Shown: one piece after another, positions 31,486 to 35,485 of the stretch | How positions within the stretch are numbered: the first letter of the stretch is position 1 | Layout: the number at the start of each line of letters is the position of its first letter | DNA from: Nitrospirales bacterium | GTDB lineage: Bacteria > Nitrospirota > Nitrospiria > Nitrospirales > UBA8639 | Assembly: GCA_031315865.1 (NCBI GenBank) | Contig: JALDRJ010000002.1 | Span: forward strand, 2,888,001-2,952,000 | Direction: 5' to 3' | Length of the DNA: 64,000 bases | The notes under the pieces: generated by a model | Database searches by the model: none | Seen by the model: only the letters and a program-made list of their open reading frames with translations | Told to the model about the DNA's origin: nothing | Program-made: the position numbers and the translations under genes

Positions 31486-33780
31486 TCATGAGTCCTTAGA
31501 CTTCTGGCCGAAATAGTCACGAAAGATCTTCTGGGTTCTTTTCATTCGGTCATGAATCGTTTTCTCGAGCGTTTCTGCCCCATCTTTCCAGTTTGGAGTG
31601 ATAAAGCCTAGGCGCCTCGCTAGAAAGATGATACTGTCAGACTCCGGCTCAGGAAGAAGAAGGTCGCGAGCATTGCCACGTACGATACGAAGCGCGTCAA
31701 TCAATTGACGGAAAAACAGGTAGTCTTCTCGGAGAGTGTGGGCTTCTTGACGTTTGATGAGTTTTCGACGGCATAGGGCCTCGAGAGCCTTGAGAGTGTT
31801 GGAATGTCGGAGTGATGCCAGACGGGAGCCGTATATGATTTGGAGGTATTGAATGAGGTATTCAATGTCAATCAATCCCCCTGGACTGTATTTGACGTGA
31901 GTGGCCCCAGCCGGAACGAGTTCTTTGATTTGACGCGTTCGAAGGTGTATGGCGGATTCCAGGTCCCACGGGGTCGAGCTGTACACAAAACGATCACGTT
32001 GTGCCTCCACTTTTTCTCCTAGCGCTCTGTCTCCGGCCACATGGCGCAGTTTGATTAAGGCTTGGCGTTCAAATGGGGCTGCAGATCCCCCCGAATCATA
32101 GTATGCGCAAAGTTCCTGGAACGAATTCGCGAGTAGTCCTTTCTCTCCATATGGTCTGAGTCGCGTGTCGATGTGAAATATCCCCTCCTTTTTGGCCTCA
32201 ATCCAGCACAAAATTTCTTGAACGAGCTGTTCGAAGAACTCCGGTGAAAATGTGAGGGTTCGTCCGGGCAAAGGTTTTTTGACATCGTAGACGAACAGGA
32301 CTTCAATATCCGAGGCATAGCCCAGTTCGGCGCCGCCCAGTTTCCCCAGTCCGAAAATCGCGAATGCCAGATGGTCGGAGAGCGTCTTTCGTGGCACACG
32401 TTGGCGCCGCATATGCACGCTCAGGGCTTCTTCTAACGCCTTGTCTAAGATGGTCTCCGCGAGATTCGTCAATGCCTGGGAAAAGTCTTGAAGCGAAGTC
32501 GGCTCTAACATGTGTTTGATGTCGATCCGGAACAGTTCTTGATCCTTAAACGTATTCAGACGGGCACGGCGGCTCTCGATCGCTGAACAGCGCTTCATTT
32601 GTGATGAGAGTGAATGAGCGAGGTCGGCTTTCGAACGGATAATCGAACCATCCTGGAATTGGGTCATGACCGGAAGAAGATTGGCATGTTGTCGACGGAG
32701 CAAGTCTTCCCAGAGGAAGTCGCTGCTTCCAAAGACTTTGGCGAGTTGACTCAGTAACGATTGCTGACGAAGCAGTGACGGCGTGAGGGCTGGATCATCC
32801 ATGGCTCGTAACTCGTCTAACAATTGGTCGAAATGTTCGAGCGCTTTTCCGGGATCTGGAGCCCATGTCAAAAAATGTGAAAATTCTTTGATAAGAGCTG
32901 CCGTGGAAGATAAGTCCTGTTGCTCTTCAGGATTCTCAATTTTTCCTCCAGTTCGTCCTCGTACGTGAAAAACATTGTGAGCCGTGTGGTCTTTGACCTC
33001 AATCTTGGCCTTCGCAATGTAAATTCCTCGCATTGTTAGGGCGTTCGCAAACGTGTACAGGAATGCGGGTGTGTCGGTGGAGCGGATGTCCATGGCGGTC
33101 GCATCGGGAACACGCGTGTTGTCGAACGCGATTTCTACGGGATGGATAACCGTTGAAACATGGGATTTTATTTTTCCAAGTGTTTCGATCAAGTGACGAT
33201 TCACTTCACGGCGAACTTCTCGAAAATGCCGTTTCTCCAGTAAATGAAGCATATTGTGGATGGATTGTCGTAAGAGTGTCTGCTCCTGTGGACCAAAGAC
33301 ACAGCCTTTTAAGAGCTGAACATTGAAGACATCAACGACTTTTTTCCGGGAAAGACCTGGAGAGGGTTTAAGAGAGCGTGGAGGCCGGAGTTGGGAGGGG
33401 GGTGGGTGCTTCCATGTTTGAGAGGCGGTCCCGTCCGATGTTCGCTTCTCAGTATAGGTGAAAATTGTGGCGTTTCTGATATCGAGGCCGGCCGAAGATA
33501 ATAGGCCACATAATGTCGCGAATTCGGAAAAGTAATCGTAGGCGATAAAAGTGAGTTGAAATCGTCTGGACGTGGCCCGGTCAACCTCGAGCTTAAAAGG
33601 ATGGTCGATCGTGAGGTGGCTAATGTGTGTGACATGTTGTGAGATTGTGGTGGGGGAAAATTGTGCGAAGTAGTCTGGGTCCATCCGTTCGACAAAGTCT
33701 TGGATAATGAGTGGGTTGAGATCTGGGCAAGCACGTTGAAGTTCTTGGATTTGTGTCTGCGGATCGGCCTCTTTGAACAT
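31486..33780 (-). CDS. GlnE-like adenylyltransferase half with two N-terminal ACT domains
   Basis: A 764-residue protein. Two ACT-like segments come first: FKLEVDRATSRRFQLTFIAY onward (about residue 60-115) and then AMDIRSTDTPAFLYTFANAL with IAKAKIEV (about 235-290), the pattern seen at the C-terminus of GlnD. A GlnE-type nucleotidyltransferase follows: FGLGKLGGAELGYASDIEVL (Asp491, Glu493), HIDTRLRPYGEKG, then GGLIDIEYLIQYLQ. ELGY-SD is the form of the C-terminal, AT half of GlnE, though the second catalytic Asp is Glu here. It probably modifies or senses glutamine synthetase. The start is ATG 33780; no Shine-Dalgarno site. Confidence 0.8.
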   Translation of the reverse strand: MFKEADPQTQIQELQRACPDLNPLIIQDFVERMDPDYFAQFSPTTISQHVTHISHLTIDHPFKLEVDRATSRRFQLTFIAYDYFSEFATLCGLLSSAGLDIRNATIFTYTEKRTSDGTASQTWKHPPPSQLRPPRSLKPSPGLSRKKVVDVFNVQLLKGCVFGPQEQTLLRQSIHNMLHLLEKRHFREVRREVNRHLIETLGKIKSHVSTVIHPVEIAFDNTRVPDATAMDIRSTDTPAFLYTFANALTMRGIYIAKAKIEVKDHTAHNVFHVRGRTGGKIENPEEQQDLSSTAALIKEFSHFLTWAPDPGKALEHFDQLLDELRAMDDPALTPSLLRQQSLLSQLAKVFGSSDFLWEDLLRRQHANLLPVMTQFQDGSIIRSKADLAHSLSSQMKRCSAIESRRARLNTFKDQELFRIDIKHMLEPTSLQDFSQALTNLAETILDKALEEALSVHMRRQRVPRKTLSDHLAFAIFGLGKLGGAELGYASDIEVLFVYDVKKPLPGRTLTFSPEFFEQLVQEILCWIEAKKEGIFHIDTRLRPYGEKGLLANSFQELCAYYDSGGSAAPFERQALIKLRHVAGDRALGEKVEAQRDRFVYSSTPWDLESAIHLRTRQIKELVPAGATHVKYSPGGLIDIEYLIQYLQIIYGSRLASLRHSNTLKALEALCRRKLIKRQEAHTLREDYLFFRQLIDALRIVRGNARDLLLPEPESDSIIFLARRLGFITPNWKDGAETLEKTIHDRMKRTQKIFRDYFGQKSKDS

Positions 33781-33786
33781 GGACAA

Positions 33787-33839
33787 AGTATACTGGAATC
33801 GTGGTCAGTTGTAAGCTGTGTTTGGGAATCGTATATAAT
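33787..33839. promoter_or_regulatory. Back-to-back promoters sharing one -35 hexamer
   Basis: Bases 33809-33814 read TTGTAA on plus and TTACAA on minus. Plus: 19-base spacer, then TATAAT (33834-33839). Minus: 16-base spacer, then TATACT (33792-33787). The -10 boxes lie so close to ATG 33851 and ATG 33780 that transcripts would start about 5 and 0 bases before them, and neither gene has a ribosome site. Not tested. Confidence 0.5.
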
Positions 33840-33850
33840 GCGCTTTGCTT

Positions 33851-35485
33851 ATGAAGGCTGGTCGTAAACGCATCTTCAAACGTCAGAGTTCCTCTTCTTC
33901 AGGCTCGTGGCTTGATCCTACCCCTTTGCTGCTTTCTTCGACCTTATCCACAGGCGAAGTCAATAGGCTTTTACAGCACTATGGTTTTACGAAGTGTGAG
34001 CAAGCAGACGCCAATTTGCAAACCATGGCAGGGAATCCGGAGGAACGTCATGCGTTGGCTGGCATTCTCCGGAAGATGCTCTTGTATATCGCCGAGACAG
34101 CCGATCCTGACCAGGCACTGAATGCCTGGGAACATTTTGTGGCTTCAGGAATTCAGAGACGGACACTGTTTCAGTTTTTGGCTCAATCCCCAAGGATGCT
34201 CCATCAACTTTGTATGATTTTCGGGAATAGCCCTGCCATGTCCGAAACGTTGATACGCGATCCCATGCTCATTTATTGGTTGGAGGAAATAAAGGCTGAT
34301 GTGGATGTTCCGAGCCAAAAAGACATGGAAGCCCATCTTCGTGAGTCATTACGTGCCGTGACGACGTATGAACGAAAGTGTGATGTTATTCGTCGATTCA
34401 GGCGGCGTGAGATGTTGAGGTTAGGACTGAGAGATTTATTAAGTGTCGGTGATGTGATCGAGACGGCCACGGCGCTTACTCATTTGGCCACCGTATTAAT
34501 CCAGGTTGTGTATGACCTGGTTCATGCCGAATTAGCCATCACACATGGACTCCCTCATCATCAGGATCGACATGGACGATGGGTTGAGACGGGGTTTGTG
34601 GTGATGGGGATGGGCAAATTGGGGGGAGGCGAGTTGAATTATAGTTCAGATGTCGATCTGGTATACCTATATGAAAAATCGGAAGGCCATACCTTGGGAA
34701 CCCACGCACACGTGACCGTGTCTAATGAGGAATATTTCGAGAAACTCGCTCGTGAAATGACTCGTGTGATGACGGAAGGCAGTGACGAGGGGGCGATCTT
34801 CCGGGTCGATTTGCGGTTGAGGCCAGAGGGTGATGTGGGCGGATTGGCTCATGCGCTTGACGATGCTGTGCAATATTATCGGACACGAGGTCGTGACTGG
34901 GAACGCATGGCATTCGTGAAATCGTACCCCATAGCCGGCAACAAATCGGTAGGCCTCAAATTTCTTCGACGAATCCGGACTTTTATCGTCGGAACCCCTG
35001 ATATGTCATCTCAGGAATTCCTCAAATCTGTACGATTGCTCAAATCAAAGATTCAGATTAAACTCCTGCGTCGTGGAGAGGAAAGACGTCATGTAAAATT
35101 AGGGTTCGGTGGTATTCGTGAGATTGAATTCCTTGTGCAAGCTCAACAGCTTCTTCATGCCCAGCAACATCCCCAAGTGCTGGAACGAAATACCTTGAAG
35201 GCGTTGCGTCGGTTACAGAACGCGCATATTCTTCCGGAGAACGTCGTTCGACGTTTGACGGCTTCATACCGGTTTCTTCGCGATCTTGAGCATAAACTTC
35301 AGATCGTGAATGAATTGCAAACGCACACACTGCCGCGTGACCTTCAGGAAGTTTCACGGTGTGCGGTGCGAATGGGTTATCAAAAAGGCCCTTCCTATCA
35401 TGAGGCGGCGCAACGTCTGTTGGACGACTATAACGGGCATACCACAATCGTTCATCAATCGTACGTGCAATACATTGGTTCGTAG
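33851..35485 (+). CDS. GlnE-like adenylyl-removing half (split glutamine synthetase adenylyltransferase)
   Basis: A 544-residue protein that matches the N-terminal (adenylyl-removing) half of GlnE, which is about 950 residues in full-length form. Motifs: VVMGMGKLGGGELNYSSDVD with Asp267 and Asp269, EYFEKLAREMTRVMTE, RVDLRLRPEGDVGGLA, WERMAFVKSYPIAGN and GGIREIEFLVQAQQLLH. ELNYSSD is typical of the AR half. The first 150 residues are helical. No second nucleotidyltransferase is fused; its likely partner is the divergent protein at 31486-33780. ATG 33851 is chosen over TTG 33845. Only 96 bases separate it from clpB. Confidence 0.82.
   Translation: MKAGRKRIFKRQSSSSSGSWLDPTPLLLSSTLSTGEVNRLLQHYGFTKCEQADANLQTMAGNPEERHALAGILRKMLLYIAETADPDQALNAWEHFVASGIQRRTLFQFLAQSPRMLHQLCMIFGNSPAMSETLIRDPMLIYWLEEIKADVDVPSQKDMEAHLRESLRAVTTYERKCDVIRRFRRREMLRLGLRDLLSVGDVIETATALTHLATVLIQVVYDLVHAELAITHGLPHHQDRHGRWVETGFVVMGMGKLGGGELNYSSDVDLVYLYEKSEGHTLGTHAHVTVSNEEYFEKLAREMTRVMTEGSDEGAIFRVDLRLRPEGDVGGLAHALDDAVQYYRTRGRDWERMAFVKSYPIAGNKSVGLKFLRRIRTFIVGTPDMSSQEFLKSVRLLKSKIQIKLLRRGEERRHVKLGFGGIREIEFLVQAQQLLHAQQHPQVLERNTLKALRRLQNAHILPENVVRRLTASYRFLRDLEHKLQIVNELQTHTLPRDLQEVSRCAVRMGYQKGPSYHEAAQRLLDDYNGHTTIVHQSYVQYIGS

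Follow-up and report, generated by a model that had tools for sequence, protein, structure and literature searches.

The split glnE locus

The stretch of DNA considered here, called the window (64,000 nucleotides of a Nitrospirales bacterium; assembly GCA_031315865.1, contig JALDRJ010000002.1, forward-strand positions 2,888,001 to 2,952,000), carries two divergent genes designated glnE-AT and glnE-AR, which together correspond to the glutamine synthetase adenylyltransferase gene glnE. Canonical GlnE combines an adenylyl-removing (AR) and then an adenylyltransferase (AT) nucleotidyltransferase within a single polypeptide of about 950 residues, while ACT domains of another protein, GlnD, sense glutamine. 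In the window the two GlnE halves are separate proteins, and the AT half begins with a module of the GlnD C-terminal type. The original prediction, made from the sequence alone, had described GlnE as split into two divergent proteins, and this was confirmed: both reading frames and their catalytic motifs were found where it had placed them, with one PF03710 domain in each protein and the two on opposite strands. The features of the locus are as follows (window coordinates).

31486..33780, minus strand: glnE-AT, ACT-ACT-adenylyltransferase protein of 764 residues, probable ATG start at 33780
32878..33762, minus strand: GlnD C-terminal-like sensory module, comprising the linker helices that follow the HD domain in GlnD (post-HD linker), ACT1 and ACT2 (residues 7-301; TIGR01693, hhalign and AlphaFold model)
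33235..33597, minus strand: ACT1 (residues 62-182), in which DYFSEF replaces the PG turn of GlnD (AlphaFold model, alignment)
33358..33444, minus strand: low-confidence, probably disordered insert of ACT1 (residues 113-141), not present in GlnD ACT1 (predicted local distance difference test, pLDDT, below 50; alignment)
32878..33135, minus strand: ACT2 (residues 216-301), in which DTPAFLY replaces DRQGLLY of GlnD (AlphaFold model, Pfam, alignment)
32002..32751, minus strand: AT-type nucleotidyltransferase domain, PF03710 (residues 344-593; Pfam, AT clade in the tree)
32302..32328, minus strand: catalytic motif ELGYASDIE with metal ligands D491 and E493 (invariant in 30/30 proteins)
32167..32169, minus strand: third catalytic acid D538, in FHIDTRLRP (motif alignment)
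31516..31899, minus strand: C-terminal helical domain of glnE-AT, PF08335 (residues 628-755; Pfam)
33781..33850, no strand: short intergenic region common to both genes of the divergent pair, with 70 bp separating their probable ATG codons
33851..35485, plus strand: glnE-AR, single-domain adenylyl-removing (deadenylylating) protein of 544 residues, probable ATG start at 33851 (AR clade; model matches 1v4a)
34202..34969, plus strand: AR-type nucleotidyltransferase domain, PF03710 (Pfam)
34631..34657, plus strand: catalytic motif ELNYSSDVD of glnE-AR (sequence)
35039..35461, plus strand: C-terminal helical domain of glnE-AR, PF08335 (Pfam)

The open reading frames as listed are slightly longer, namely 31486-33786 with a TTG start at 33786 for glnE-AT, whose homologues begin near the same place, and 33845-35485 with a TTG start at 33845 for glnE-AR.

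Identity and active sites of the catalytic domains

In the Pfam search the minus-strand frame matched the GlnE nucleotidyltransferase domain (E 3e-43) and GlnD_UR_UTase (E 1.4e-15), and the plus-strand frame matched one GlnE nucleotidyltransferase domain (E 1.2e-61) and GlnD_UR_UTase (E 5.3e-26), all four PF03710 and PF08335 matches exceeding the curated cut-offs. The assignment of the plus protein to the AR type and of the minus protein to the AT type, originally read from the motifs, was borne out by a maximum-likelihood tree of catalytic domains with 56 rows, which drew on Nitrospiria proteins (10 of plus type, 14 of minus type), on E. coli GlnE and on 20 canonical GlnEs belonging to other families within the phylum. 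All plus proteins grouped with the canonical AR halves and all minus proteins with the canonical AT halves, with support of 100/99 in each case, and the plus proteins as well as the minus proteins formed a single clade. The same tree ruled out the assignment of the minus protein as an AR half, which had been considered on the basis of PRK14109 aligning to its N-terminal half. The stem of the AT clade is considerably longer than that of the AR clade (1.21 versus 0.29); thus, the AT half has changed more.

Structure prediction of each protein alone agreed with these assignments. In the Foldseek search the model of the plus protein matched 1v4a with E 3e-25, and the top matches of the minus model were 1v4a and 3k7d, both GlnE crystal structures.

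The metal-binding motif of GlnE is described as G-X11-D-X-D (PMC12409994). In GlnE-AR the D-x-D pair (SSDVD) and the third aspartate (the D of RVDLRLRP) are kept, while the minus proteins contain ELGYASDIE or EMGYASDIE, where D491, E493 and the G-K-x-G-G residues are invariant in 30/30 aligned proteins and the third aspartate D538 is present in all 29 of these that extend to it. Every canonical AT half whose motif was read, including that of E. coli, has D-x-D, so the second metal ligand of the split AT is glutamate in place of aspartate. An active enzyme is expected.

The sensory module of the AT protein

The original prediction had also noted two ACT-like segments before the AT domain, and these were confirmed by TIGR01693, hhalign, the AlphaFold model and Foldseek. 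The outcome with ACT profiles was nevertheless divided. The Pfam ACT profile PF01842 gave no match to the minus protein of the window, and the ACR9-like ACT profile PF24931 stayed below threshold there (E 0.007), although it recognised ACT2 in 29/30 homologues with a best E of 5e-8. By contrast, the GlnD model TIGR01693 aligned the minus protein (residues 14-294) with the GlnD segment 606-843, which corresponds to the linker, ACT1 and ACT2. Profile-profile alignment by hhalign against 13 GlnD C-termini gave a probability of 99.85 and E 1.4e-30 over 252 columns. This match takes in the motif RYxxxxxPxxIxxHxxxxxxL of the post-HD linker; therefore the sensory tail of GlnD is represented in its entirety, beyond isolated ACT domains. 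In the AlphaFold model of the minus protein (mean pLDDT 81) two ACT-like units lie within residues 62-301, and Foldseek also retrieved the ACT-bearing proteins L-GDH180, SerB2 and GcvR, with weaker E-values than those of the GlnE structures.

In a tree of the ACT modules and GlnD C-termini the modules of the AT proteins formed one clade with support of 100/99. The branches of this tree are long (3.06 for E. coli GlnD and 2.58 for the AT stem), so the GlnD lineage that served as donor cannot be named. The insert of ACT1 (window 33358-33444) is variable, rich in proline and arginine and probably disordered, being longest in the family of the window genome and nearly absent in locus L069.

Distribution in Nitrospirota

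The genome of the window (3.78 Mb, 98% complete, two contigs) contains PF03710 matches only in the window pair, so that a full-length glnE is lacking and the possibility that the two proteins are paralogues unrelated to a GlnE encoded elsewhere was not supported. Genome surveys were confined to the phylum Nitrospirota. In a sample of 148 genomes of the phylum every Nitrospiria genome with a GlnE match had the split type with ACT-AT, while the GlnEs of other families were single chains, mostly of 930-1170 residues, and their match to the query started only at about residue 271, leaving out the ACT part. In the class-wide search ACT-AT was found in 202 of the 242 Nitrospiria genomes and in 157 of the 177 good ones. 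Recheck of 26 negative Nitrospiria genomes revealed no full-length GlnE and neither of the split genes intact, and most of these genomes gave just a weak match of the kind that GlnD gives. In two of them fragmentary GlnE matches were seen (G275:C3:32686-33087 and G284:C82:5091-5258), which may reflect decay or assembly gaps.

The survey of neighbours in related genomes, proposed originally as a check, showed the pair to be adjacent and divergent in all genomes and families where both genes were examined, including 10 positive genomes from families outside the first sample, in which the two genes were adjacent on opposite strands. A search of a public species collection with the ACT-region alignment yielded 256 related loci, and the best 80 of the 256 had Nitrospira or Nitrospirota titles, including Nitrospira moscoviensis, N. 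defluvii and Candidatus Manganitrophaceae. Two exceptions by title among these 80, L203 labelled Nitrospinota and L183 labelled Nitrosospira, may be due to mislabelling, contamination or transfer. The original interpretation was partly supported, and the class-wide spread of the pair, the post-HD linker and the change from DxD to DxE had been missed in it.

Comparison with known systems

The bifunctional GlnE of E. coli type (PDB 1V4A, 3K7D) is similar to the Nitrospiria system in that its halves are homologous to the two catalytic domains, the catalytic acids are in place and GS (glutamine synthetase) offers the target tyrosine. The differences are that Nitrospiria has two proteins from divergent genes, that GlnE-AR ends after its own helical domain while GlnE-AT opens with the ACT module, so that the central regulatory linker is missing, and that the AT half carries this GlnD-type module at its N-terminus and has DxE for DxD.

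The likeness to GlnD covers the first 300 residues of the AT protein, which match the post-HD linker, ACT1 and ACT2 over the 252 columns mentioned above; however, the AT protein has neither the nucleotidyltransferase nor the HD domain of GlnD, the module is N-terminal, the turn glycines are replaced and ACT1 contains the insert, and the window genome has a gene for a true GlnD at another site. Tandem ACT (ACR-type) proteins such as plant ACR11 and ACR9, as well as SerB2 and GcvR, possess a tandem ACT fold related to that of GlnD, but in the AT protein the ACT domains are fused to a nucleotidyltransferase and lack the beta1-alpha1 glycine that is reported in ACR11 and ACR12 (PMC3173338).

Glutamine synthetase, PII and GlnD

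The window genome encodes GlnD, two PII-family proteins and GS with the target tyrosine. This tyrosine lies in an NLYDL or DLYDL loop, and the Y398 column is invariant in E. coli and four Nitrospiria genomes. The distance of the split pair to glnA, glnB or glnD could be measured in 30 genomes; in 25 of them the pair is within 28 kb of one of these genes, and in two it is within 150 bp of glnA. The order glnB-glnD-glnA is found in genome G009, and in G027 glnA directly follows glnB. Near the start of contig 2 of the window's own genome (L079 2708-7310) the genes glnA, amt, glnB and amt lie on the same strand, with the amt genes flanking glnB.

In the Nitrospira genus to which genome G145 belongs GlnD was undetected in 41 of the 53 genomes with at least 90% completeness, one-contig assemblies included, and all these 41 genomes carry ACT-AT. 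Thus, in these Nitrospira the modification of GS, if active, cannot rely on uridylylated PII (PII-UMP) made by GlnD. PII was kept in 19/19 genomes tested, and its Tyr51 is kept both with and without GlnD, being therefore uninformative as a sign of GlnD-independence. According to these data the originally proposed reduction of PII dependence is favoured circumstantially by the 41 genomes that keep ACT-AT without GlnD, but PII is present in all tested genomes, and the window genome, with PII and an intact GlnD, gives no evidence of reduced PII dependence or of a loss of PII control. In the genus of G145 a glnB-glnA stretch without glnD is seen at L081 1060-2865. In one genome (G070:C65:1284-3440) GlnD is on a contig separate from glnB, and over the aligned part its glnB does not differ from that of the GlnD-less G043, which points to possible contamination of the bin.

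Proposed mechanism and alternatives

Taken together, the locus is probably a rearranged GS adenylylation system of Nitrospiria, with a separate eraser and writer and with a GlnD-type ACT module gating the writer. The two GlnE active sites are made as separate proteins, the eraser GlnE-AR from the plus strand and the writer GlnE-AT from the minus strand, and in place of the central regulatory segment that links them in E. coli GlnE the writer has at its N-terminus the sensory module known from the C-terminus of GlnD. The writer would adenylylate the conserved tyrosine of GS, presumably its substrate, and the eraser would take the adenosine monophosphate (AMP) off. The ACT module would gate the writer allosterically according to nitrogen status; sensing of glutamine by this module is plausible from its homology, while the ligand itself is a matter of speculation, with glutamine or a related amino acid as the first candidate. 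In GlnD-less Nitrospira the circuit would have to do without PII-UMP and depend on ACT gating, possibly together with unmodified PII. As a more tentative extension, which we hold to be possible but short of an even chance, the bicyclic cascade of GlnD-PII and then GlnE-GS may have been wholly or partly reduced to one layer, in which a re-tooled GlnD sensor on the GS writer would read nitrogen directly beside a separate eraser, and this sensor would in GlnD-less Nitrospira give GS modification its only known input from amino acids.

Several observations weigh against the probable mechanism. The beta1-alpha1 turn of ACT domains carries a near-invariant glycine, the position of which coincides with that of the ligand site (PMC3173338), and this hallmark glycine is replaced in both repeats of all 30 aligned AT proteins. 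In ACT1 these proteins have DYF-S/A versus xxPGLF of GlnD, with a turn that is two residues shorter than in most (30/30), and in ACT2 they have D-T/S-P-A versus DRQG, the glycine being replaced by A239 (30/30). Consequently a GlnD-like ligand pocket cannot be assumed, and the pocket has been either re-tooled or put to other use. Moreover, the pair in the window genome is not near glnA, glnB or glnD, and PII is kept in all genomes tested with Tyr51 retained even where GlnD is lacking, so PII may still matter.

The replaced turns also speak for a rather unlikely alternative, in which the ACT module has ceased to sense metabolites and serves as a surface for docking or dimerisation, bringing the writer to GlnE-AR, GS or PII in place of the lost covalent link. 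The turn glycines are gone and the ACT1 turn is shortened, yet the residues near the replaced turns are invariant (D82, Y83, F84, F87, C91 and G92, that is DYF..F...CG, and P238, A239, F240 and L241 within TPAFL), a pattern to be expected of a new pocket as much as of a conserved surface; the missing central linker and the longer stem of the AT clade are consistent with such a role as well. Despite this, ACT1 of E. coli GlnD (PYLF) likewise lacks the turn glycine in a working sensor protein, hence glycine loss alone does not exclude sensing, and ACT-ACT units elsewhere are typically amino-acid sensors. It is also conceivable, though improbable, that the substrate of the writer is not GS, or not GS only, and that PII is modified by AMP as a substitute for the lost GlnD activity. 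Actinobacterial GlnD adenylylates PII (PMC3612183), Tyr51 of PII is retained in the GlnD-less genomes examined, and the DxE motif and the long AT stem suggest an altered function; but ACT-AT is equally conserved in genomes with intact GlnD, the window genome among them, the partner of the writer is a canonical AR eraser, the target tyrosine of GS is retained, and Tyr51 may be kept for other contacts of the T-loop. The last alternative, that the pair is a degenerate or assembly-derived remnant, either a broken GlnE or two unrelated paralogues, is extremely improbable. Both proteins do fall under the curated cut-off of the NCBIfam GlnE equivalog (208.8 and 327.8 bits versus 487), but the frames are open and the catalytic residues invariant across about 200 genomes, the genes form a divergent adjacent pair in all families examined, full-length GlnE is absent and the proteins take their places in the AT and AR clades. 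Degeneration is thus ruled out by the class-wide conservation.

Novelty and significance

No protein AMPylation was described earlier than that of GS, and GlnE serves as the standard case in which a writer and an eraser share a chain and are joined by a regulatory linker. In Nitrospiria the chemistry and the family halves are the same, while the architecture is new and the wiring probably so. In the open-access literature no paper with both "GlnE" and "ACT domain" was found and no split or ACT-bearing GlnE was described among the titles listed, subscription journals being mostly outside this search; a review in which the glnB-glnD-glnA cluster of Nitrospira is mentioned does not describe a split ACT-bearing GlnE in the section consulted (PMC6311188).

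In a whole class of ecologically major nitrifiers the two proteins are untethered and the writer bears a grafted GlnD sensor, and GlnD has been lost in part of one genus, which offers a natural test of the need for tethering and PII uridylylation in the GS adenylylation cycle. This has a bearing on the control of ammonium assimilation in nitrite oxidisers and comammox bacteria. Since both halves miss the equivalog cut-offs, automatic annotation will misname split glnE genes.

Surroundings of the pair

A promoter scan of the region between glnE-AT and glnE-AR gave one weak promoter-like site, at chance level. The pair in the window is flanked by a sigma factor gene on one side and by clpB on the other.

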